This document shows, one piece after another, positions 6,349 to 57,089 of a DNA stretch of 58,727 nt. The stretch lies in the NCBI GenBank assembly GCA_017461665.1, contig JAFTXI010000007.1, forward strand, positions 1-58,727. The letters are read 5' to 3'. The stretch comes from Bacteroidales bacterium (GTDB lineage Bacteria; Bacteroidota; Bacteroidia; Bacteroidales; F082). How positions within the stretch are numbered: the first letter of the stretch is position 1; every line of letters starts with the position of its first letter. The notes under the pieces were generated by a model. It saw only the letters and a program-made list of their open reading frames with translations, was not told the origin of the DNA and did no database searches. Position numbers and translations under genes: made by a program.

Positions 6349-6750
6349 TCAGGCGCTGCCAAATTCAAAAGCAATATCTTTGTGGGCATAAGTACCTCCA
6401 TAACGACCTTGTTTAGAGAATATTCCGATGGCACTCGTTTTTTCAACACAACTATTAATACTCATTGTAAATGTTGGTAAACTCGACTCCTTTCTAAAGT
6501 GGTCAAATTCGACCACTTTAAAATTAGGGTTATAAAAAGATTCCCATGTTCCTAAAAATTCGATAGTACCTCTATTCCTAATCCAATTTTTAATGATGGC
6601 AGCAGCTATGGTGAGATATGTTTTGCGGTCGAACTCGGGTGGAAGGTTGTTGAGGAATGTCTGCCGGATAATGGTGGGGGCATTGCCGTTTGTTGTTGTT
6701 TCGGTGGCTGGCAATGAACCAAAAACCTTGGCTGTGTGTTGCAGAAGCAC
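6349..6750 (-). pseudogene. Chimeric remnant: KilA-N domain fragment fused to a DUF3987-like tail
   Basis: The C-terminal two thirds match KilA-N-family proteins of Bacteroidota: NWIRNRGTIEFLGTWESF, VEFDHFRKES, SAIGIFSKQGRYGGTYAHKD and IAFEF. It stops just after that block, so the usual C-terminal domain is missing. The N-terminal part (LPPEFDRKTYLTIAA) instead resembles the end of DUF3987/primase-type mobile-element proteins. Only a GTG start exists, and the upstream frame (RAWHWW then a stop) does not continue either family. I read this as recombined debris of mobile genes. Family matches are from memory, not a search. Confidence 0.6.
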
Positions 6751-6803: not shown

Positions 6804-7262
6804 TTATGTCGTTGATATTTTATTTCTAATAATGTTCAAGAAGGTCGAATTACGAGCATCAGCATCGTTTACAACAGCATCAAAATCCATGATAAACAAA
6901 CCTATAGGAACTGACACTTTTGGATTAGCTTGCAATACAATCTCTTTATCCCTATAGTAAACCTTACCTGTTGAGTACAATTTATGGTAGTCGGAAGCAA
7001 GATGTAATTCGTATTCTTCATCTATTTCAACAATTCCATAGAACCAAATTTGCTGAATTTTATCCTTATAATGTTGCAATAATTTTCTTGCCCGTTTTTC
7101 TAATTGTATTTCAACAATAGAGTTGTTTTCTACAGACAACCCTTTTTTCTTCAATTCAACAATTACGACATTGACTTTTTTGTTATTTGTTTCTTTGGGG
7201 TCTCCTGAGAATATAAGAGCAATATCAGGTCTGTCGTCATCATTGTCATATACTTCCCCCCT
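6804..7262 (-). pseudogene. Frameshifted PD-(D/E)XK nuclease half of the GHKL ATPase gene
   Basis: Read in the frame shifted by one base at the G6 tract (7256-7261), the previous ORF continues as GEVYDNDDDRPDIALIF, then VNVVIVELKKKGLSVE and about 125 more residues to the stop at 6804. RPD...VELKKKG is a classic PD-(D/E)XK nuclease core (D, E-x-K). No good start codon is visible for separate translation before the motif; the first ATG at 7154 falls after the E-x-K. Removing one G joins both parts into a 612-residue protein. Confidence 0.7.
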
Positions 7263-8643
7263 CAGTTATAACATTAACGACATCAGACATTTCCTTATCG
7301 CTAAGAATTGTGTCATATGTCATATATTTATCATCAAGAACCCAGATGTTGTTTCTGTAAATGTCATCAGCAAAAGTTTGTTCTTCAAATACATTTTTCA
7401 TTGGAATGAGAATATTGTGTATCACAGATTCTCTATCTTTTTCATCAATATTTTTTAACTTTTCAATTACATTTTGGCGAAACAAAATATATTCAGTCAA
7501 GGTTCGTGACGCTAAATCTAACGATTGTGCGTATTGCTCATCAGATAAATGAGTGGCATTAAGTATTTCTCGTTGCTTTCTAAAAAATGTTTCTTGTGCT
7601 TTTTTTAGCAATTCATCTTGAGAAGCATAACCTATCTTGTCATTTTCAAAATATCCGTTTAGATGCGGATACCTATTTATCAACTTTTCTTTCCGCTCTT
7701 TATTAATCTGTGCGATTTTGGGGATTTTTTCATTGATAATGCTTTCTATGTTTTTACGTAACAATGATTGAATTCTATCCATATCCGCTTTGGGAATAGA
7801 CAAACTTTCTCTTGATGCATCAACCTTACCTGCAAAATAATCGGAATACAGCAGGAACACCATTTCATAAAAAGGCGGAAAATTCTCATTCGCCATAATA
7901 TCAATAGGATAAGTCCTTTCGTCTACAGATATTGCAGTAATAACTTTACTATTGCCTGTTGTACTTTGTATATTATAGTATAATTCTATATTTGAGAATA
8001 AATCTAACTTTTCTTGTATTTGTACTTGAGTAAATTCAGGAATGTCGGATGTTTTCAATGTTTCTGCTTGTTGTTTGCCCGATATGGTTGCAGTAATTGA
8101 AATCTCAATATTTTCTGATTTTGTTTTGTATTTGTATAAACGAGAATAGAACTTTTCAAGAACTTTGTCTTTTATATACTTTGGAAAAAGATATTCATTT
8201 TTACCCAATTTAGCTAATGTGTACCCTGACATTGACAATGTGCTCCCATTAACACCTTTGCTTTGCTGTGTAATTGTGCAATTTGCTTCATCAAAAGAAT
8301 CTGAAAACTCAAAATCTCGTTGATATTTCTCTTTATACCTACTTGTTATCTTTATTTTCTCAAAATAACACAAATACACCAACCTCCCTAATCCTTTATG
8401 AGACGCATCTTCAACATCAAATAGATTGCTGAACTTGGAATACCTTTCGTCAGTAAAGCCTTCGCCATTATCAGAAATGGTTATTACAAGGGTTTCAGGT
8501 TGGCTGTAATCTTTGGCTTCAATATTGATGCTAACTTGCGTGGCATTGGCATCCAATGCGTTGGCTATAGCCTCAAAATAAACCATCTCTAATGAAGAGT
8601 TTCCAAAGAATAGTTTTACCGCTTTGCTTAACTTTACTTTCAT
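7246..8643 (-). CDS. MORC/MutL-like GHKL ATPase of a restriction-modification operon (frame broken near its end)
   Basis: The N-terminus has the GHKL ATP-binding motifs: the N box E24-x3-N28-x2-DA32 (FEAIANALDANA), D58-NGEGF63 (G1 box) and KGLGRL at 83-88 (G2-like lid). A second domain (about 200-320) would be the S5-fold transducer, and the rest is helical. The ORF ends at 7246 only because a G6 run shifts the frame; the natural protein continues into a PD-(D/E)XK domain. MORC-like GHKL ATPases joined to nuclease domains are known from bacterial restriction-modification loci. It is the third gene of this operon, 83 bases after the methyltransferase. The gap encodes a short coiled-coil-like run (KKIEEIRKEIERLRIT) without a usable start. 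The exact role (ATP-dependent restriction or accessory) is inference. Confidence 0.75.
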   Translation of the reverse strand: MKVKLSKAVKLFFGNSSLEMVYFEAIANALDANATQVSINIEAKDYSQPETLVITISDNGEGFTDERYSKFSNLFDVEDASHKGLGRLVYLCYFEKIKITSRYKEKYQRDFEFSDSFDEANCTITQQSKGVNGSTLSMSGYTLAKLGKNEYLFPKYIKDKVLEKFYSRLYKYKTKSENIEISITATISGKQQAETLKTSDIPEFTQVQIQEKLDLFSNIELYYNIQSTTGNSKVITAISVDERTYPIDIMANENFPPFYEMVFLLYSDYFAGKVDASRESLSIPKADMDRIQSLLRKNIESIINEKIPKIAQINKERKEKLINRYPHLNGYFENDKIGYASQDELLKKAQETFFRKQREILNATHLSDEQYAQSLDLASRTLTEYILFRQNVIEKLKNIDEKDRESVIHNILIPMKNVFEEQTFADDIYRNNIWVLDDKYMTYDTILSDKEMSDVVNVITEGGSI

Positions 8644-8726
8644 ACATAAAGGATTTAAGTGATTCTCAGTCTTTCGATTTCTTTCCTAATCTCCTCAATC
8701 TTCTTGGATAAATGCGTGGTTCATTG

Positions 8727-9560
8727 TTAAATTTCCTGTATTAATTCCGCTTGATGATAAAACATTCCCATATTTTCCTTGTGTAATTCGACACGTTTCC
8801 GTGCTAAATCACAATACGTTTCGCTAATATCAATACCTATATAGTTCCTTTCATTATCCATCGCAGCAACGCATGAAGTACCACTTCCACACATTGGGTC
8901 TAAAACTATATCTCCTTCATTTGACCATGATAAAATATGGTCTTTTGCCAATTCGTATGGAAATGGTGCGGGATGTTCTTTCGATTCTTGGTCAACCGCT
9001 TTTTTTCCAACAACGTATTCCCAAATATTCCCTTTTATTTTATCGTTTTTCACAGGGTTGGCCAATTTCCCACGAGTTTGTTCTCCCTTGGAATAGTTTT
9101 TATAAGTTGTTCCCTTCAGTTCCAAGCCAGCATGTAAACAAGGTATTTTTATTGGATTATGCGTTGAAACGGGACCTTTGGAAAAGACAAACATATATTC
9201 AAATTCATTGTTGTAACGTTTCCTGTATATTTGAGGAACTGGATTTGTTTTTTTGAAAATCATAGTATCATGAAGATTAAAACCACATTCTACGAATTTT
9301 AATGCCTGCTTAAAACTCGTACAAGTTTCACAACCATCAATTGTCGCATCTGAAACAACCCAAACGACAACACCGCCCTCTTTTGTAATTCTAAATAATT
9401 GTTTTGCAATACTTTCAAATGGAAAACTATATCCTTTATATGTTCTAAGGTTGTCGTATGGCGGAGATGTAATGGTCATATCTATAGAATTGCCAGGGAA
9501 CAATTCCATTACGTTAACACAATTTCCGCTGAGAATTTGATTTATATATTGTTCAATCAT
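8727..9560 (-). CDS. Type II DNA methyltransferase, beta class, partner of the HindIII-like enzyme
   Basis: S-adenosylmethionine-dependent DNA methylase. Catalytic motif IV TSPPY (residues 31-35) precedes the SAM-binding motif DPMCGSGTS (221-229), the order of beta-class N6-adenine/N4-cytosine enzymes. The start at 9560 gives an ATGA overlap with the endonuclease stop; an ATG 20 codons upstream (9620) would lie within that gene and add a non-conserved extension. Length is 277 aa. By context it should methylate the endonuclease target and protect the host. Its specificity is not readable from sequence alone. Confidence 0.9.
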   Translation of the reverse strand: MIEQYINQILSGNCVNVMELFPGNSIDMTITSPPYDNLRTYKGYSFPFESIAKQLFRITKEGGVVVWVVSDATIDGCETCTSFKQALKFVECGFNLHDTMIFKKTNPVPQIYRKRYNNEFEYMFVFSKGPVSTHNPIKIPCLHAGLELKGTTYKNYSKGEQTRGKLANPVKNDKIKGNIWEYVVGKKAVDQESKEHPAPFPYELAKDHILSWSNEGDIVLDPMCGSGTSCVAAMDNERNYIGIDISETYCDLARKRVELHKENMGMFYHQAELIQEI

Positions 9561-10432
9561 CTGTTTATCTGATTTATAAATGTTCTTATAGTGTCTATTT
9601 TCGAGTCCAACTTCATGCAAACTATAAGTTCCTCAATTGCGGTTTCCCTGTCCAATTGCCTGATTCTATTAATTTCATCTTCATAATACAGAATCTCACT
9701 GTTTCCCCGTTCAACAATCATTTCTTTTATTTGTGCGAACAAATGATTGAAAACATTTTCGGAAATATTTATGATATTCAGCAAGTTGCAGTCTTGTTGT
9801 CTTATAAAACTTTTGTTTGATTCTTCAACTGTAACATTTTGCCTGATTATAGCACTTTGATTCCATAAATCAGACAAATTCAAATTTGGTGTTTCCTTAA
9901 CATGTGCTGACAAAAGCACATATAAATATTCCCATGAAAACAATGCAACATTCCCATACAATGCAGACTTGTAGATTTGGCTATTCGCTTTCGGATATTG
10001 ATAATAAGGGCAGGCAAGAACAGAGTAATCGTTATCGCCCCTCCAATGTACCATTGAATCAACTTTGAAGTCTTTTGCGTTTTTTGCTGTACGACTCAAA
10101 CGAAATGCTTTTGCATCTCCAACGAGAGAATATCCGTGATATTTGCTTTGGGCGACAATGTCCGCACAATTTGAGCGTTCACGTAGCACCTGTACTTCAA
10201 AGTCCATTTCTTTAAGTGCCTTGGCAAATAGCATGTCAGAAACTTTTGTGTATAGTTTTTCTTCCGTGGAGTCATGGGCTATATCTTCAGGAATAATACC
10301 AATCTCTGTAATTAAAGCAATCGTATCATTCGTATTTATAGTGAAAAGAATCTGTTGAAGTTCATTGCTCGCCTCAACAAAGTTCTTGTCGATTTTTTCC
10401 TTAATCAATCTTCTCAAATCTCTGTAATTCAT
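9557..10432 (-). CDS. HindIII-family type II restriction endonuclease
   Basis: Strong resemblance over the full length (291 aa) to HindIII, which cuts AAGCTT. The most diagnostic block is GDAKAFRLSRTAKNAKDFKV (105-124), nearly identical to HindIII. The catalytic D91...D106-x-K108 pattern (CADIV, then GDAK) is kept. Later blocks (PYYQYPKANSQIYKSAL, NVALFSWEYLYVLLS) also match. It is the first gene of the operon, and the next gene overlaps its stop. Cleavage at AAGCTT is inferred from homology. AAGCTT is not avoided in this window (for example 64, 2353, 12797, 20662), so an active enzyme would need the methylase to protect the host. Confidence 0.92.
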   Translation of the reverse strand: MNYRDLRRLIKEKIDKNFVEASNELQQILFTINTNDTIALITEIGIIPEDIAHDSTEEKLYTKVSDMLFAKALKEMDFEVQVLRERSNCADIVAQSKYHGYSLVGDAKAFRLSRTAKNAKDFKVDSMVHWRGDNDYSVLACPYYQYPKANSQIYKSALYGNVALFSWEYLYVLLSAHVKETPNLNLSDLWNQSAIIRQNVTVEESNKSFIRQQDCNLLNIINISENVFNHLFAQIKEMIVERGNSEILYYEDEINRIRQLDRETAIEELIVCMKLDSKIDTIRTFINQINR

Positions 10433-48066: not shown

Positions 48067-48379
48067 ATGAAAAAAGTATTAAATCGTAACTTATTGATTT
48101 CCACCCTAATAACTACAACGGGGGGGTAATTTGCATTATGTAAATTACGAGACTTGTTCTTTTGACCAAAACCTTAGTGAAACCACATCTATTGTAGAGC
48201 CTGCCTGGGCTTCATTCGGAGACGACAAATCTAATTTCAATAATATATACAGAAATAATTTCTTGCTTGAAGGCGATGATGCTTTCTCGAGCGAGTTGTT
48301 TCTTTATACCCATTATTGTCCTATTGGAACTGCCAAAGAAAAATGTTTAATCTTAAAATTCCACAGTGCCGCAGCATGA
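48067..48379 (+). pseudogene. Small ORF broken at a G7 tract (hypothetical)
   Basis: ATG 48067 opens MKKVLNRNLLISTLITTTGG and stops at 48127, right after a run of seven G (48120-48126). With six G the frame would continue as GNLHYVNYETCSFDQNLSET and on to the stop at 48379, giving a 103-aa protein ending FHSAAA. The N-terminus is only weakly signal-like. No family is recognised. Either a decayed gene, a phase-variable gene or a sequencing error. Confidence 0.45.
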
Positions 48380-48440: not shown

Positions 48441-51400
48441 ATGAAAATTAAAACATTTATTCTGACATTTCTTTTAGCAATGTCGTGTCCGTTTTTGTTC
48501 GGACAGAGTAGATCAGGCCAAACTTCAATTGCGAATTTTGGCGACCTACAAAGTGCTATTAAAACTGCTAATGAAGCAGAATCAGAAAGCGCTAAAACTA
48601 TTGTTCTTTACCTAACAAGTTACGGTATAGAAGATGCTAATGCAAAAATCACCATTGACAAAGGTGTAAATGTAACATTAGATCTTAATGGTCGTAATTT
48701 GTGGAGTAATGCTGATAATTATCTTTTTCAGATTAACGAAGGTGCTACATTAAGAATTAAAAACACTGGTAATTATGGAGAAGGTTCTATCAAAGCTAAA
48801 GGCATTAATAACTATCAAGGTACGTTGATAATTGAGAATGTTGTTTGCGTAAGCGAATCAACATCAGGTGCTTTGATCAACAACCAAAAAGGTGGTACTG
48901 TTAACATTAATGGTGGTAGCTATGTTACTAAAAGCAATACTGCTATCAATAACCAAGGTGTCATGACAATCGCTAATGCTGAAATTAGTAGTGACTACCG
49001 TGCTATTACCGTTTATAAAGAATCTACATTAGACATCACAAATACTAAAATATATGATGTAAATGCTGGATATCGTTTTGATGCTAAATATTTGACAGCT
49101 GCTGAAGTTAATCTTGCGTACACCAACACAGAACGTTTAGATGATTCTGGTAATGCTATACCTGTAATAACAGAAGGTGAAGGTACTTTCTTCGTTAAAG
49201 CAATTGTTGGTGATGAACCATTTGCAAGTTTAAAAGAAGCTGTAGAATCTGCAATTGCATCGCAAGAAAATGAAGTTTCTTTATATACCAGCGATGTAGA
49301 AGATGAAATTATTGAAATCACAGCTCCTATCATTATCAATGGTAATAACAAAACTTTAACTTCAACAGCTAGTAGAGCTATTAATGTTAATATAGATGGT
49401 TTTGAAACAAATAATGAAGTTACAATTAATGACTTAACAATCGTTGGTAAAGATGGATGCCAAAGAGGTATCAACATTATTAGAACTAATGAAGTTACTG
49501 AACCTGGAAGCCCTATAGTTAACATCAATAATGTAACTATTTCTGATATGACACACTATGCTGTACATGTCGCAAAAACTGGTGCTGCTGTTAAAGTTAA
49601 TGTTAAAGATTCAAACCTCAGCGCATGGGGTGCCTTGGCAGTTTATGGCGATGGTACTATATGTAACGTTGAAAATTCAAAATTAACAGGTATTAACACC
49701 TATCAAGGTGAATCAGATGCATTCGCTACGATTGCTTTAGGTGGCAAAAATGTTGAAATCAACGTTGATGAAAATAGTACAGTTACAGCTAAGAGTTCAG
49801 ATGAATACAAAACACAATTTATCGTTTGTATATATAATTCAACAACAGAAAATGCAAAAGTTGTTCTCAAAACAAACAATTTGAGTTTGGAAGGTAGCAA
49901 TGTTGAATATCTTGAAAGTGATTTCAGTAATAGTAATATTGATTTACAAGTTAGCAAAGATTTAATTGAAACATTAGAAGAAGCCGGTTATGCACTTGGC
50001 ACTCCAACAGAAGATGGTTTAGTATCTGTTGAAGGTGTTGCAGTTGCTGAAATTGATGGTAAGAACTATACTTCTCTTCAAGCTGCTTTAAATGCAGTTG
50101 CTGAAGATGGTATAATTAAAATAGTTGCTGCAGAAGGTGAAGAAGATTATGTTAAATATAATGGAACTGCAAAACGTTTCACGGTTCAATTAGCTGAATC
50201 ATCAAACTATACAGTTAAAGGATTTGATGTTGAAAGTGAAACAACAGTTACTATAGAAGGTAGTAATTATAACTCTTTTGGAGTAAAGAATGCTAATTCT
50301 GTTATCGAAATCGCTGGAGAAATCAATACAGCTACAATCAATGGTGATGGTTCAATTAATTTGTTGGATGGTGCTAAATTCAGTGTTAAGAATATCAGTG
50401 CCAACATTAATGCTTCTGGTAATGTTGTTATCAATCAATCAGCTGGTAGTACTGTAACTAAACCTATTACTCTTAAAGGTGCGACATTGGCTGAAGGTAC
50501 AGTGTTAAATAACGTTGATATTGTAGTTGCTGAAGGTGAAAATGCTATCAATACTGCTATTGAATTAAATAACTTAACAGTCGCTGACGAAGCAACACTT
50601 ACAGCTAATGCAAATGTAACTGTTAACAATGTACTCGAGATAAATGGTACTGTAGAAGTTGATAACAATGCTAAATTATCACATAATAAATCACTTACTA
50701 AACTAAATGATGGAGCAATAATCAAAGTAGCTGAAGGCTCAACCTTTGCCATCTTTAGTGGTGATTTTAATGGAAAAGTTAAATTTGAAATTAACGGAAC
50801 GGCAAAAAGCGCATATTCCATTTCTACTCTCGATGAAGGTGACAAACTTGAAGTTGAGTTGAAAGCTGAAGCAGCTAGATTTGAAGTTAAAGAAATTGCA
50901 AGCGATAACTTTACAATTACATCTGGTGTTGCAGCAATGAAAGTCGCTTATCAAAGTGAAGCATACGTCCTTGCTAACTATGAATATGTCGCTCAAGTTA
51001 AGGATGCAGAAGGTGTAGTAATTGCTAAATTTGAATCTGTCGCTGATGCTCTCGATAAAGTAGAAGCAAATCAAACAATTGTAATCGAAGGTAAAGAAGG
51101 TGACAAAGAACCTGCAGTTATCAGTTATGACGGTGAAGGTAAAACATTCACTATCACATCTGCTGAAGGTTCAATGTATTCATTTGGCGGTAATAAGATT
51201 AATTTATCAAATGCAACTGTTAATCTTGATAACGCTAACATTAACGGTATCATAGTGGCTGCAAAAGATGCTACTATTAATATTATCGGTACCACATACG
51301 TCAAAACACTTATGAGTGCAGGTACTGGTAAATACTTAGTAGATAACGCAACACTTAATGTTGGTACTCTTATGTCTGATGTTTATGTTTCTGGTGTATC

Positions 51401-54400
51401 TACATTGAAAGTTGATGCTTACACAAGCGGTACTTTGTTTATGTCGAATGTTACTTTAGGCGAAACATCAGTTTTGAATAATGCTAATATTACATTCACT
51501 GAAGGCGATAATGTTATTAATGGTCAAGAACTTGGTGCATCTAAATATATTATCAATAATGGTGTTACAGTTACATTGAATAACGCTATGTTAGAAGGTG
51601 TCGATAATAGTACAATTGAAGGTACATTGAATGTTAACAACTCACAGGTAAAATACAAAAACCTTGTAGTTAATGGTGAATTGAATATAACAAACGAAGA
51701 TAATGCAAATACTGTCAATGAATTAGAAGTAACAGGTACTCTTACCGGCAATGGTATGATCAAATTGAATAATGTAGATGCTAAAACTAAAGCTTTAATA
51801 GTAAATAATACATTAGTTGTCGATAAAAATTCAGTATTAACTATACTTACTACAATAAAAGGTGATGGTACTTTAGAAATTGCAGGTAATGTCAATGCAT
51901 CAGAATCTACTTCACAAACTGTTGAAAATATTACAATTAATAGCATCCTCTTAAACGGCACAGCTGCTAAATTCTATGCTCCAGAAGGTTTAACTAATGT
52001 TAAAGATGTTAATGATCTGTTAGAACCAAAATATGAAGAAGAAGAAGGTTACTATTCACTCGACGGAACTTACGTAGCTCAAGTTGGTGAAAAATCTTAC
52101 CTCACAATCGGATCAGCTCTTGAAGCTGTACAAGAAAACAACACAATTATTACCTTGATCGATAACACTACTGAAGATGTTACTATCGGCAAGAATGTTG
52201 AATTCGAAACCATTGAATCTGGTGTCGCAATTAACGGTACTGTTACAATTGGAGATGGTGTTAATCTTACAAATCATGGTAAGATAACTGTTAATGGTAG
52301 TTTGAATAATAACGGTACTTTAACAAACAATGGTGCTTTAATAGTTAATGCACTTAATGGAGTAGGTTCATTAACAAATAATGCTACTTTCAATAATAAT
52401 GGTACTTTAACTGCTAATGTAATATTTGAGAATACTGACAAATTTATTAATTATCAGACTATTGAAGCATCTGAACTTATAAACTCAGGTGATATCGAAA
52501 ACAAAACTAATGCTAAAATAGATGTTCTTGTTGAATCTGAAAGTACAGATTGGTATGGTAATTCTACTACTACATTTAGTGGTTCTATTGCAAACACAGG
52601 TACTATAAATAACTATGGTAGCTTACAAACAAACGAGTTTACTTATAATAGTAATGTTTATCTTTACGCTAATAGTTCAGTTTGGGTTCAACAAACTAAT
52701 GATATTCCAGGTTCATTCTTTGTAAATGCAGCTCTTACTTTAGATGCTAATACACAATTACAAAAAGCTAACATTACATTTGTTAAGGATGTTGTAAGTA
52801 CTATTAACGGTGCTAATTTAGCAGGTAGTAAATTAACTGTTGAGCCAGATGCTACATTAAATGTTCAAAATAACTTGAATATTGAATCATTAGATTTGAA
52901 ATATGAAACCGGATATTATTGGAATGAATATGTTTATGTTTATTCTACAGTTAACATTAAAGGTAATGGTAATTTAACAGTTAGTACTTTAACTAACAAT
53001 GCAAAACTTAATGTTGAAGGTACCTTAAAAACAACAACATTAACAAATGAAAGCAGAGGTACTATTATAAACACAGGTACTTTAACAGCTAATACTAACG
53101 GTATCGAAAATAAAGGTACTTTAACAAACAATGGTACTTTAACAGCTACAACAATTACAAATAGTGGTTCAATTAGCAATGATGCAGGTAAATCATTAAC
53201 AGTTAATGGTACTTTAACTAATAATTTGACTATTAATAATAGTGGTAGTTTAACAGCTTATAATGTTCTTAACAATAGCAATAACACTGTCAACACAAAT
53301 ATTCAATTGGAAAACATTAGCAACGGTACTTTAACAGTTAATAATGGCGATTTAACTAATAATGGTTCTATCACAATTAGCTCAAATTCAAACAATAATA
53401 AAGTAACTGGTACTTTAACAAATAAAGGTACTATCACAGTTAGTCATGGTGCTAAATTAACAGCAAATACTGTTTCTAATGAAGGAGCTGCTGCAAAATT
53501 AAATGTTTATGGTAATTTTGTTGCTAATTCTTCTTCTTATTATTATAATAGTTATTCATTTACTAATGTTAATGGCGCAACTATTAACGTTACAGGCAGT
53601 TTGCAAGTTAATAGCAACAATGTTAAAAACAACGGTACAGTTAACGTAGAAGGAACTTCAGCTGTTATCTACATTGCTAACAGTGTTTCAAGTCAAAGTA
53701 CAGGTACTTTCAACATGGAAGGTGTTAATTTAAATGGTAGCAACAAGTTGACAGGTGCTGATATTAAATTTACTGGTGTAACTTACCCATATGCAGAATC
53801 TAGCACAATTTCTGGTGCAACATTAACTAATAGTAAATTGACAGTTGATAGCGGTTATATATTAGATGTTACAGCTAATTTAGATTTATCAGACGGTACT
53901 TTAACAAACAATGGTACAGTCAATGTTGACAGAATTGAATTGTCAGGTGCAACATTAACTAACTCAGGTACTCTTTCAATCAATGAAAGTGGTTCTGCAA
54001 TATTTAGTACTGTTGAGAACAATTATATAATCAATGTTTCAGAATCAACTTTGGAAGCAACTTCCACATTTACAAACAGCGGTACCGTTAACGTTGAAGA
54101 TTCATCTGTATTAAATGCAACAGTAACTGGTGATGGTACATTCAACATGACAAATGTTATATTAGATGGTAATACAACATTAACTAGTGCTAACATCACA
54201 TTTACAAAATCAAATAACACAGTTAGATCTTCATATCTTTTAGGTTCTGCTGTTATAGTTGAAAGCGGTGCTACATTAGAATTAACTGGCGCAACAACAG
54301 GTGGTATCATTAACAAAGGTACACTCAATTTAACTGGTATTGTTGAAGCAGGTGATGTTACAAACATGGCTACAATCGGAATGATGGCTGATGACACTAA

Positions 54401-57089
54401 GTTCTATACACCAACAGAAACTTTAGCAGATGTTATGATAACATGTCATACCGGTGACGATGTAGTTTACAATGTCGATGAAAAATACTATTACATCAAT
54501 AATAACTATGTAGCTAAAGTAGGAGAAAAAGAATATGCATTGTTACAAGACGCTATCGATGCTGCTAACAACGGTATAGTTACAATCATCGCTGAAAGCA
54601 TTGAAGAAAATGTAAAAGTTTCAGATGATGCTAATATAGAATTTAAATTAGATGCAGTTAGTGAAGCTACAATCAACGGTACACTTACAGTTGCTGGTAA
54701 AGCTACATTCAACTGCGCTAAAATTCAATTCACAAATGTAGATCTCGAAGCTGGTGCTAAAATGGACATCAATAGTGGTGCATTCAGTGTTGAAGGAACA
54801 ATAGCAACCTTAGGTCAGAACACAGCAATTTATGTTGCTGAAGAAACAGAACTCAATGGACGTATTAAGATCCAACACTTATATACATCTATTGATATTG
54901 ACGGAACAGTTGACGCAAGTTCAGTTACCGTACCAGAGGTAATCAATGTTTATACAATTAACTTGGGTGCTCACGATGCAAAATTGATCACTCCTACGAC
55001 AGGTTTGAATGTTACAACAAATTATGTTGCCGAAGATTTAATAGATGAAAATGGCAAAAACCACAGAGTTTCATACAAAGAAGACGAAGGCTGGTATCAA
55101 TTGGTCAACATGTTTGTAGCTAAAATTGGAGTTAATGGAACAACACCATACACAACTCTTGATGCAGCTCTCCAAGCAGCTAACAATAATGAAGAGATCT
55201 ATTTATTATGGGAAGACGGTAACGATCCTATCGTAATGAAAGGTGCATTATCAGGCAAGAATGTAACAATCAAAGCTGCTGTTGATGCTACAATTGATGT
55301 TGACTGGAGCGAAGGTTGGCTCTTTATCGGTAGAGGTTACGAATACAACAATGGTCCAGCAGAACTCACATTCGACAATGTTACTTTAAGTTCTGTAAAC
55401 AATGGTGTTCATGTTTCAAACGACAATACCAATGGTTATATTTATGGTATCCATGTTTCTGGCAGACAAAGAAATTCTGAGAAATATGATGGTAAACTCG
55501 TAATCAAGAATTCAGTCATCGAGCTTTCATACTTGGTAAATAGAAATGTTGTTGAAATAGAAGATAATAGTGAACTTACATTACAACAAGAAACAGGTTT
55601 GAATGTAGGAGGTCGTGTAGCAAAAGAATCTACTACAGGAACAGATAGATCAGCAAGCATAGCACTTACAAATTCTACATTGAATATAAATAATGCAAAT
55701 ATTGGATACGAAGACAATATCGATGGTCAGAAATATCCTACAATGGGCGTTATGAATGTAAATGAAGGTTCACAAGTTAATATTGCAGACGGCATGAAGC
55801 TTCATGTAGGCGATCAAGGCACACTCAACAGTTCAGCAAACATCTTTGGTTTCTTCGACACAACAGATCTCGGACAGATTAACCTTTCAGCCGGTATCTA
55901 TTCATTCGATGTAAATGCATATTGTGAACTTGGTGTATCTGCATTCGAATTACCAACTGGTTACTGGGAAATCAGACAAACAGCAGGTGGTCAAGAACGA
56001 AAATTTGCAAATGCCGGATGGTATTGGTTCTCTTCTTACATTGCAGACTTAGAAGGAACAGAGGGTCTTAATATGTTAAGAAATGAATTAAATCCTTATG
56101 GTAAACAAATTAAAGGACAATTTGGTTTTACAAATTACTTTGGTTCAAATTGGTCACAAGGTGGTCTCAATGCACTTTCATCATCTGGAATGTATATGAT
56201 TAATACTACAGATGCTGTTACAGTATCATTTGAGGGTGACTTTGTAGATTATAGTAATACACCTATAGTATTACAAAAGGGTTGGAATTGGATAGGCTAT
56301 CCTGTAAAAGATGCACAAGACCTTACAGTAGCACTTGCTAATTTAACTCCAAATGAAGGTGATGTTATCAAAGGAAAAACATGGACTTCATACTATGAAG
56401 ATGGAGCATGGGAACCAATAGATAATATTATGGAACCTGGTCATGGCTATATGTATTACTCAGTAAAAGAAAATGATTTCTATTATAATTCAAATGGTCA
56501 GCCTGCAGCACCAAGCAGAGCTTCAGAGTCAAAATACTGGAATGCTAACACATCATTATATCCAAGCAATATGTCAATAATTGCAACAACAGATATTGAA
56601 GGATCAGATTATGAAGTAGCAGCATTCGTTGATGGAGAGGTTCGTGGCAGTGCACGCCCAATCTATGTTGAGTCAATAGACGCTTACATTGTTGTTCTTA
56701 CTATAAGTGGTAATGATGTTGAAGAAATGACATTCAAATACTATGACACAACTACAGGTGAAGAATTTGAATTCGCAAATAGAATGAACTATTCAAACGA
56801 TGCATTAGTTGGCTCGATGGCAGAACCATTCATGTTGACTCGTGGTACTACTGGAATTGGCAATGTTACAGCGAACGTAGTAAACATCTATCCTAACCCA
56901 ACAACAACTGATGTAGAAATCAACCTCAATGCTACATGCAACAAAGTTGAAGTATTCAACGCACTCGGTGTTAAGGTTGCCGAATATCAAAACGTTGATT
57001 CTATCGATGCTCTTGAAACAGCAGGTATATACGTAATTAGAATTACCAACGAAGGCAATGTACAAAATTGCAGATTAGTAGTAAAATAA
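48441..57089 (+). CDS. Giant Asn/Thr-rich beta-helix-like surface protein with T9SS sorting domain
   Basis: 2882 residues. The signal peptide is MKIKTFILTFLLAMSCPFLF, cleaved near GQS. The body is mostly short N/T/G-rich repeats such as LTNNGTLTA and VNVEGT, suggesting a long parallel beta-helix. At least five spaced units of the form VAxVGxxxYxTLxxALxAA recur (near 50040, 50985, 52072, 54508, 55113), plus one weaker unit near 49190. Near residue 2720 is a YEVAAFVDGEVRG domain shared with the next gene. The type A sorting domain starts NIYPNPTTTD (about 2815). Codon use is more A/T-rich than in the metabolic genes. Likely an adhesin or surface fibre. Confidence 0.85.
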   Translation: MKIKTFILTFLLAMSCPFLFGQSRSGQTSIANFGDLQSAIKTANEAESESAKTIVLYLTSYGIEDANAKITIDKGVNVTLDLNGRNLWSNADNYLFQINEGATLRIKNTGNYGEGSIKAKGINNYQGTLIIENVVCVSESTSGALINNQKGGTVNINGGSYVTKSNTAINNQGVMTIANAEISSDYRAITVYKESTLDITNTKIYDVNAGYRFDAKYLTAAEVNLAYTNTERLDDSGNAIPVITEGEGTFFVKAIVGDEPFASLKEAVESAIASQENEVSLYTSDVEDEIIEITAPIIINGNNKTLTSTASRAINVNIDGFETNNEVTINDLTIVGKDGCQRGINIIRTNEVTEPGSPIVNINNVTISDMTHYAVHVAKTGAAVKVNVKDSNLSAWGALAVYGDGTICNVENSKLTGINTYQGESDAFATIALGGKNVEINVDENSTVTAKSSDEYKTQFIVCIYNSTTENAKVVLKTNNLSLEGSNVEYLESDFSNSNIDLQVSKDLIETLEEAGYALGTPTEDGLVSVEGVAVAEIDGKNYTSLQAALNAVAEDGIIKIVAAEGEEDYVKYNGTAKRFTVQLAESSNYTVKGFDVESETTVTIEGSNYNSFGVKNANSVIEIAGEINTATINGDGSINLLDGAKFSVKNISANINASGNVVINQSAGSTVTKPITLKGATLAEGTVLNNVDIVVAEGENAINTAIELNNLTVADEATLTANANVTVNNVLEINGTVEVDNNAKLSHNKSLTKLNDGAIIKVAEGSTFAIFSGDFNGKVKFEINGTAKSAYSISTLDEGDKLEVELKAEAARFEVKEIASDNFTITSGVAAMKVAYQSEAYVLANYEYVAQVKDAEGVVIAKFESVADALDKVEANQTIVIEGKEGDKEPAVISYDGEGKTFTITSAEGSMYSFGGNKINLSNATVNLDNANINGIIVAAKDATINIIGTTYVKTLMSAGTGKYLVDNATLNVGTLMSDVYVSGVSTLKVDAYTSGTLFMSNVTLGETSVLNNANITFTEGDNVINGQELGASKYIINNGVTVTLNNAMLEGVDNSTIEGTLNVNNSQVKYKNLVVNGELNITNEDNANTVNELEVTGTLTGNGMIKLNNVDAKTKALIVNNTLVVDKNSVLTILTTIKGDGTLEIAGNVNASESTSQTVENITINSILLNGTAAKFYAPEGLTNVKDVNDLLEPKYEEEEGYYSLDGTYVAQVGEKSYLTIGSALEAVQENNTIITLIDNTTEDVTIGKNVEFETIESGVAINGTVTIGDGVNLTNHGKITVNGSLNNNGTLTNNGALIVNALNGVGSLTNNATFNNNGTLTANVIFENTDKFINYQTIEASELINSGDIENKTNAKIDVLVESESTDWYGNSTTTFSGSIANTGTINNYGSLQTNEFTYNSNVYLYANSSVWVQQTNDIPGSFFVNAALTLDANTQLQKANITFVKDVVSTINGANLAGSKLTVEPDATLNVQNNLNIESLDLKYETGYYWNEYVYVYSTVNIKGNGNLTVSTLTNNAKLNVEGTLKTTTLTNESRGTIINTGTLTANTNGIENKGTLTNNGTLTATTITNSGSISNDAGKSLTVNGTLTNNLTINNSGSLTAYNVLNNSNNTVNTNIQLENISNGTLTVNNGDLTNNGSITISSNSNNNKVTGTLTNKGTITVSHGAKLTANTVSNEGAAAKLNVYGNFVANSSSYYYNSYSFTNVNGATINVTGSLQVNSNNVKNNGTVNVEGTSAVIYIANSVSSQSTGTFNMEGVNLNGSNKLTGADIKFTGVTYPYAESSTISGATLTNSKLTVDSGYILDVTANLDLSDGTLTNNGTVNVDRIELSGATLTNSGTLSINESGSAIFSTVENNYIINVSESTLEATSTFTNSGTVNVEDSSVLNATVTGDGTFNMTNVILDGNTTLTSANITFTKSNNTVRSSYLLGSAVIVESGATLELTGATTGGIINKGTLNLTGIVEAGDVTNMATIGMMADDTKFYTPTETLADVMITCHTGDDVVYNVDEKYYYINNNYVAKVGEKEYALLQDAIDAANNGIVTIIAESIEENVKVSDDANIEFKLDAVSEATINGTLTVAGKATFNCAKIQFTNVDLEAGAKMDINSGAFSVEGTIATLGQNTAIYVAEETELNGRIKIQHLYTSIDIDGTVDASSVTVPEVINVYTINLGAHDAKLITPTTGLNVTTNYVAEDLIDENGKNHRVSYKEDEGWYQLVNMFVAKIGVNGTTPYTTLDAALQAANNNEEIYLLWEDGNDPIVMKGALSGKNVTIKAAVDATIDVDWSEGWLFIGRGYEYNNGPAELTFDNVTLSSVNNGVHVSNDNTNGYIYGIHVSGRQRNSEKYDGKLVIKNSVIELSYLVNRNVVEIEDNSELTLQQETGLNVGGRVAKESTTGTDRSASIALTNSTLNINNANIGYEDNIDGQKYPTMGVMNVNEGSQVNIADGMKLHVGDQGTLNSSANIFGFFDTTDLGQINLSAGIYSFDVNAYCELGVSAFELPTGYWEIRQTAGGQERKFANAGWYWFSSYIADLEGTEGLNMLRNELNPYGKQIKGQFGFTNYFGSNWSQGGLNALSSSGMYMINTTDAVTVSFEGDFVDYSNTPIVLQKGWNWIGYPVKDAQDLTVALANLTPNEGDVIKGKTWTSYYEDGAWEPIDNIMEPGHGYMYYSVKENDFYYNSNGQPAAPSRASESKYWNANTSLYPSNMSIIATTDIEGSDYEVAAFVDGEVRGSARPIYVESIDAYIVVLTISGNDVEEMTFKYYDTTTGEEFEFANRMNYSNDALVGSMAEPFMLTRGTTGIGNVTANVVNIYPNPTTTDVEINLNATCNKVEVFNALGVKVAEYQNVDSIDALETAGIYVIRITNEGNVQNCRLVVK
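52300..53930 (+). repeat. Near-identical GGTACTTTAAC units inside the giant gene
   Basis: The 11-mer GGTACTTTAAC (encoding GTLT) occurs at least nine times here, often inside longer shared strings such as AACAAATGGT-like NNGTLT units. This is repetition at DNA level, not only protein level, so length change by recombination is likely. Confidence 0.7.

Follow-up and report, generated by a model that had tools for sequence, protein, structure and literature searches.

A GHKL ATPase-nuclease gene beside a HindIII-type restriction pair: domains, broken reading frame and restriction-modification contexts

On the 58,727-nucleotide (nt) contig JAFTXI010000007.1 from a Bacteroidales bacterium (assembly GCA_017461665.1), which is here called the window and whose positions serve as coordinates, three genes follow each other on the minus strand from 10432 to 6804. 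A HindIII-family endonuclease gene is followed by a methylase gene and then by a gene for a GHKL ATPase, the C-terminal nuclease part of which lies in another reading frame. This raises the question whether the third gene is a partner of the HindIII-type restriction-modification (RM) system or a defence module in its own right. We favour the second answer and assign it a probability of about 0.62: two defence modules would stand side by side, namely a HindIII-type pair and an optional second-layer nuclease of the paraMORC3 type, which resembles VcSduA and is broken as assembled. Domain content, residue conservation, gene contexts, optionality and the broken frame were computed here.

In working relatives, the N-terminal GHKL ATPase and the middle region would feed a C-terminal PD-(D/E)XK nuclease. 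Judging from VcSduA and from the conserved residues, these proteins most likely act as an ATP-controlled GHKL dimer, and ATP binding and hydrolysis by this dimer would control a nuclease that cuts invading phage DNA directly. Cutting would be independent of the methyl mark of a neighbouring system, and in the window this would mean independence from the HindIII-type pair. The gene may be mobile. As an optional second layer, it would repeatedly have settled within or next to RM operons of various types, and other copies stand alone.

Domains and reading frame of the third gene

The larger open reading frame (ORF) of the third gene, with 465 amino acids (aa), scores 36.2 bits against HATPase_c_3 (cut-off 25) and is also above the Pfam cut-off for HATPase_c. 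It keeps the GHKL residues E24, N28, D58, G60, G62, G84 and G86. To judge conservation, an alignment was made of 69 full-length sequences (67 of 79 relatives and the viral L125 and L126) and the 465-aa ORF of the window; the 79 relatives were taken from the best 80 of 97 profile matches, and 12 viral loci were considered in addition. Residues E24, N28, D58, G60 and G62 are present in all 69 full-length members, and so are the nuclease residues D472, E496 and K498. All 70 members match HATPase at E-values (E) of up to 1, and the out-of-frame piece of the window carries the family-conserved RPD and VELK as well as a following Q. By its sequence, the third gene is a GHKL ATPase gene with its own predicted PD-(D/E)XK-type nuclease, as the original prediction had proposed. 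As the S5 motif GhXhhpXXRhl that is specific for MORC proteins proper (Iyer 2008) occurs in none of the 70 members, its term "MORC-type" is loose and "paraMORC" is the better word.

Searches of structure and defence collections added little. With the 465-aa ORF as query no match was obtained among PDB sequences, while the family profile matched only GHKL proteins (PMS2, MutL, histidine kinases and others; best E 0.003), and the nuclease domain alone gave chance-level matches only. PADLOC assigned no family to the ATPase piece and returned merely scattered weak matches across the family.

Intact relatives have about 612 aa, and in the window the corresponding sequence is distributed over two frames (Table 1), which were searched as two separate queries. 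The 465-aa ORF is up to 61% identical to residues 1-461 of its relatives (60% for relative L076). The small ORF, when extended to its upstream limit near 7255, yields a 151-aa piece which is 75% identical to residues 461-609 of the intact L076 protein (612 aa); its best match, at 76%, is the partial gene L080. The repaired length of 612 aa that had been predicted from the window agrees with that of the relatives. As assembled, the third gene of the window gives an ATPase without a nuclease, since the nuclease part is out of frame and would not be supplied. A search of the genome found no other copy.

Table 1. Features of the three-gene block, in window positions.
Feature	Position	Strand	Basis
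HindIII-family type II restriction endonuclease, 291 aa	9557..10432	-	RE_HindIII PF09518; HindIII structure match
N6/N4 DNA methyltransferase, 277 aa from ATG at 9560	8727..9560	-	PF01555; relatives beside other HindIII-family genes
GHKL ATPase and middle region of the third protein, 465-aa ORF	7246..8643	-	HATPase_c_3, HATPase_c; relative L076
Run of six G on the coding (minus) strand, frame switch point of the third gene	7256..7261		sequence scan
Out-of-frame C-terminal piece with the PD-(D/E)XK-type nuclease (in the ORF list 6804-7154, 116 aa)	6804..7255	-	relative L076

The frame switch coincides with one of only two runs of at least six G or C in the window, and phase variation through this run was considered. 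Among the ten close relatives scanned, all ten lack a run of six G or C anywhere in the gene, which makes a conserved switch unlikely. A programmed frameshift was considered as well. Only two of the 79 relatives, L113 and L115, have the gene in two ORFs, both broken elsewhere, and the others are in one frame as far as the sequence reaches (in L121 the ORF is merged and truncated), so that a programmed frameshift is also unlikely.

Restriction-modification contexts of the gene family

RM genes are frequent beside the relatives of the third gene. An RM gene was found in the examined flank of 36 of the 79 relatives, compared to one of 40 control stretches of 15.8 kb, which were drawn from eight genomes of the phylum only. 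In 24 relatives the RM gene is directly adjacent and on the same strand, although one of these cases (L121) rests on a merged ORF. When relatives are collapsed at 90% identity, 27 of 67 have any RM gene and 16 of 67 have a directly adjacent one. These labels represent phmmer similarity (E 1e-5) to a single seed set that was checked against Pfam in part; L083 and L103 have their RM gene on the opposite strand, and some RM genes are 3-6 kb away. The gene family associates with RM systems in general, in line with the original prediction, which had referred to such ATPases as known from restriction loci. At 43 of the 79 loci no RM gene is present in the examined flank, with many flanks ending at contig ends. 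By eye, no RM gene adjoins either of the two strong homologues (G331 and G320) in a phylum draw of 395 genomes, that of the window set aside.

The partners are of many kinds. Pfam analysis of representatives detected HsdR, HsdM, HsdS, Type_ISP_C, C5, N6_N4 and Eco57I, and in 11 loci (leaving out L121) the gene overlaps hsdM, hsdS or ISP-like genes by 4-26 nt. The ISP-like methylase-specificity protein of L076 (8836-11970) contains N6_Mtase and Type_ISP_C domains and has no helicase match. Proteins of this kind have about 1030-1044 aa in L076, L107 and L110 and are distributed over two ORFs in L078; their genes overlap the GHKL-nuclease gene by 4 nt in L076, L078 and L110 and are 3 nt apart from it in L107. 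In L096 (5485-14243) the GHKL-nuclease gene is followed by two C5 methylase genes, an AAA_5 ATPase gene and a gene for a 753-aa protein, an arrangement which resembles that of the LlaJI-type, McrBC-like RM systems. Locus L093, where two C5 methylase genes also follow, resembles L096 by gene sizes. Two N6/N4 methylase genes precede the GHKL-nuclease gene in L088 (4757-8848), and no restriction gene was labelled there with the seeds used.

HindIII-type systems are not among these partners. PF09518 was found above cut-off in 5 of 395 genomes of a phylum draw and in 5 of 393 genomes of an order draw, with the genome of the window included in both. None of the eight other HindIII-family loci, all of which extend for 2.6 kb or more beyond the methylase on its downstream side, carries the third gene: tblastn with six members of the GHKL-nuclease family returned chance matches only (E at least 0.24). 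None of the 79 relatives has a HindIII-labelled neighbour in its examined flank. Among 72,556 plasmid records there was no match to the L076 protein, while 19 records code for a HindIII-like endonuclease; the more distant member L131, used as query, matched 25 plasmid records, none of the 20 listed ones being one of the 19 with the endonuclease. The L076 protein also has a match in one phage record, at 23%. Among the other 39 genomes of the genus, a single one has a homologue (G812, 42% identity), which by eye lies beside an HsdS gene. A title and abstract search of the literature, to which subscription papers and preprints did not belong, retrieved no report of a HindIII system paired with a GHKL-nuclease. 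A special partnership with the HindIII family, which the original prediction had singled out, is not supported. As its refutation that prediction had named rarity of the third gene next to HindIII-type systems of other genomes, and this is the outcome here.

The reverse question is whether RM systems related to the known partners need the gene. The HsdR protein of operon L089, which contains the gene, and the L076 ISP-like protein served as queries against 277 genomes of the order. Of the 22 HsdR loci obtained, eight are 65-72% identical over nearly the full length, 13 are 39-41% identical and one is partial; the 30 ISP-like loci examined, out of a larger number of listed sites in 55 genomes, are 38-58% identical to the L076 protein. 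The third gene was found within up to 1.5 kb on each side in none of the 22 HsdR and none of the 30 ISP-like loci, several of whose flanks are cut by contig ends. It is thus optional to such RM systems.

Partner turnover was followed on a quick tree with long-branch warnings, which comprises 72 rows (69 of the 79 relatives, L125, L126 and the window) and leaves out ten duplicate, partial or split genes. The RM label requires 19 changes on this tree, at least 16 of which are forced by starred branches. When the label was shuffled on the tree, 23.2 changes were required on average, and 22 of 500 shuffles were as low as 19. RM partners are gained and lost, and the linkage is mildly inherited. The window groups with nine rows (support 90, not starred), of which seven are linked to RM, namely to ISP-like and type I genes. 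Three of these seven are near-copies, and in L083 the HsdM gene is 2.2 kb off and on the other strand; in the two remaining rows the contig breaks off at the gene or near it.

Known relatives and competing explanations

The domain architecture of the third protein, and its occurrence in RM and stand-alone contexts, have been known since 2008. In the sections that we draw on here, Iyer, Abhiman and Aravind (2008, PMC2292703) describe paraMORC3 as a GHKL ATPase with a C-terminal nuclease of the restriction-enzyme fold that is prevalent in Proteobacteria and Bacteroidetes, with genes located in RM neighbourhoods and also alone; the main text of their study does not contain the word HindIII. By sequence, the third protein has the N-terminal GHKL ATP-binding residues as well as the C-terminal D and ExK of paraMORC3, from which the window copy differs in being split over two frames and in standing beside a HindIII-type pair.

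The described portions of a more recent study (PMC12137116) concern VcSduA, a GHKL-type Shedu protein ("type I-D") encoded beside the type IV system GrwAB; VcSduA-like proteins were formerly annotated as paraMORC3. VcSduA protects E. coli when expressed alone, its phage defence is abolished when E27 or K557 is changed, and the growth data are reported there to be consistent with direct restriction and host survival. Four longer GHKL proteins from Bacteroidota form a bridge: the profile of our family aligns with this group end to end over 568 columns (99.95%, E 1.2e-37), and the four proteins have their ATPase E near position 27 and their nuclease K at 552-564, positions comparable to those reported for VcSduA, with the same domain order. 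In contrast to VcSduA as described in the portions cited, the family is frequently flanked by RM genes (36/79), and it is about 60 aa shorter than the bridging group.

Is the third gene then a Shedu gene? Among the top 25 of the 57 families matched by the 70 members, SduA_C (DUF4263) is absent, and the remaining 32 families match at most one member each. Comparison of profiles, with an SduA_C alignment made from 9 of 13 matches, was weak for the C-terminal domain (36.6%, E 3.7e-4, with the catalytic D and ExK in register), for the full-length family (6.1%) and for the bridging group (55.1%). Because of the missing direct match and these weak scores we do not file the third gene as proven Shedu; it is most likely of the paraMORC3 type and VcSduA-like, as far as sequence comparison can tell. 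A separate GHKL protein, encoded at L160 (123-1883), is fused to a Shedu SduA_C domain that scores 32.5 bits, over the cut-off. The restriction enzymes BbrUII and HgiDII (NF050001) share a weak GHKL-motif similarity with the third protein, with about 50 residues aligned and 24.6 bits, but the cut-off is 550 and the three of six relatives that match score only 19.3-39.3 bits, so that the third protein does not belong to them.

Several observations weigh against an independent second-layer nuclease related to VcSduA. The link to VcSduA, which is described from the paper, is one of architecture and residue numbering, and the SduA_C comparisons given above are weak. The mild clustering of the RM label on the tree (19 changes versus a shuffled mean of 23.2) indicates that linkage to RM is partly inherited, and the frames overlapping with hsd and ISP-like genes suggest a tighter co-function than mere parking. 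Precedents from other protein families point both ways. TgvAB (PMC11411939) and DarTG2 (PMC12255303) are, in the portions of these studies that we cite, likewise defence genes positioned among hsd genes as an extra layer, and they differ from the window, where the partner is a type II system. TgvAB, a pair embedded in a type I operon, protects without HsdR; for several phages, however, its protection is reported to be 10-100-fold lower when it acts alone than with the complete cluster (PMC11411939).

The competing explanations differ in the role that they give to the RM neighbour. The original prediction had offered a second restriction layer that uses the HindIII methyl mark, or else a back-up. 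Location on the same strand and in the same order as the pair, with a gap of 83 nt after the methylase gene, would fit a layer dedicated to the HindIII system. This is very improbable and largely refuted, as the gene is missing from all eight other HindIII loci, including L149, the nearest of those compared, as well as from any HindIII neighbourhood among the 79 relatives, and the methylase classes of its partners are unrelated. These unrelated methylation types (C5, and N6/N4 enzymes unrelated to each other), together with the many copies that have no RM gene in view, make it unlikely that the HindIII mark is read, while a back-up layer is still the best reading. Alternatively, the GHKL-nuclease could be an end-processing partner: it would recognise DNA ends left by whichever restriction enzyme is encoded next to it and break down the cleaved phage DNA, and would thus help RM systems of every type without reading their mark. 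RM linkage that is indifferent to the type of partner, and the overlaps with hsd and ISP-like genes, would be expected in that case. We nevertheless consider it unlikely in view of the 43 loci where the examined flank, often cut by a contig end, has no RM gene, and of the protection by VcSduA alone in the published experiments cited above. The Shedu profile scores of this branch are low. Quite unlikely, too, is the general form of this proposal, that GHKL-nucleases of this branch are restriction add-ons which finish invader DNA cut by type I, ISP-like, paired-C5 and type II systems. If true, it would explain how one orthologous family can swap unrelated RM partners and overlap their frames, yet be dispensable.

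Finally, the third gene may be a relic without present function: what is left, in decay, of an earlier RM locus (a type I or ISP-like one, for instance) that the HindIII pair has entered or moved next to. The frame break in the only copy found in the genome, the two relatives that also have the gene in two ORFs, and the linkage of the nearest clade to ISP-like and type I genes in seven of nine rows (three being near-copies) are compatible with decay, as are a KilA-N remnant downstream and the low G+C content of the block. But the assembly is a draft and the break coincides with a homopolymer, so that an error of sequencing or assembly may have produced it; both pieces have kept their active-site residues and 60-75% identity to L076, so that decay, if real, must be recent. 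We regard this explanation as improbable.

Under the preferred reading of two adjacent defence modules, a common restriction pair has as its neighbour in the window a defence nuclease of a kind already known, the gene of which is broken in the assembly. More can be learned from the wider pattern. A single orthologous GHKL-nuclease family, a distant cousin of the tested phage-defence protein VcSduA, occurs in varied RM contexts; it abuts or overlaps type I, ISP-like and C5 genes in some loci, is absent beside similar HsdR or ISP-like genes elsewhere, and at many loci is without a nearby RM gene. This contrast allows embedded defence nucleases to be tested for acting independently of restriction or for feeding on the ends that restriction makes.

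The HindIII-type pair and other features of the window

The three-gene arrangement that had been predicted is confirmed by its ORFs and by Pfam. The endonuclease scores 203.4 bits against PF09518 (cut-off 25.3), and residues 6-289 of its 291 match the solved HindIII chain 2e52 with E 7.8e-63, which places it in the HindIII family. Its stop is overlapped by the start of the methylase gene. The methylase ORF is listed as 8727-9620 on the minus strand (297 aa), in which extent it scores 152.6 bits against N6_N4_Mtase, and the ATG at 9560 was used as start. The methylase is 69-75% identical to six methylases that adjoin other HindIII-family genes and is thus of the HindIII type; HindIII locus L036, which has a methylase of different size, is outside this comparison. 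The gene order, endonuclease followed by N6/N4 methylase, is that of the other HindIII loci examined. In contrast to the methylase, the endonuclease is just 34-37% identical to five other family members, and the nearest HindIII gene among those compared, L149 (G626), is broken, with 64% and 53% identity over two pieces. Going by its family, the pair probably recognises AAGCTT.

The three-gene block has a G+C content of 32-35%, compared to 39.5% for the window, which fits horizontal arrival. A short coil-like stretch (8643-8727), which is in frame and separates the stop of the methylase from the start of the ATPase, was considered as the remnant of a lost hsdM or methylase gene; by eye it is unlike the C-termini of six other HindIII-type methylases, and it is too short to be placed. 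Just downstream of the third gene, at 6349-6750 on the minus strand, there is the remnant of a KilA-N domain protein (PF04383, 37.7 bits). A complete KilA-N gene likewise follows the GHKL-nuclease gene in L070, at a distance of 90 nt. For the flanking pstB no match was found in the other 39 genomes of the genus at the strict cut-off used.

Elsewhere in the genome, seven N6_Mtase matches over the cut-off are distributed over contigs C3, C4, C9, C15, C19 and C60, while the contig of the window (C57) has none. The second G/C run of the window consists of seven G at 48120-48126 and is located upstream of a large ORF (48441-57089, plus strand). This ORF codes for a repeat-rich protein of 2882 aa, which is probably secreted, as it has, by eye, a signal-like stretch at the N-terminus and a sorting-like C-terminus.

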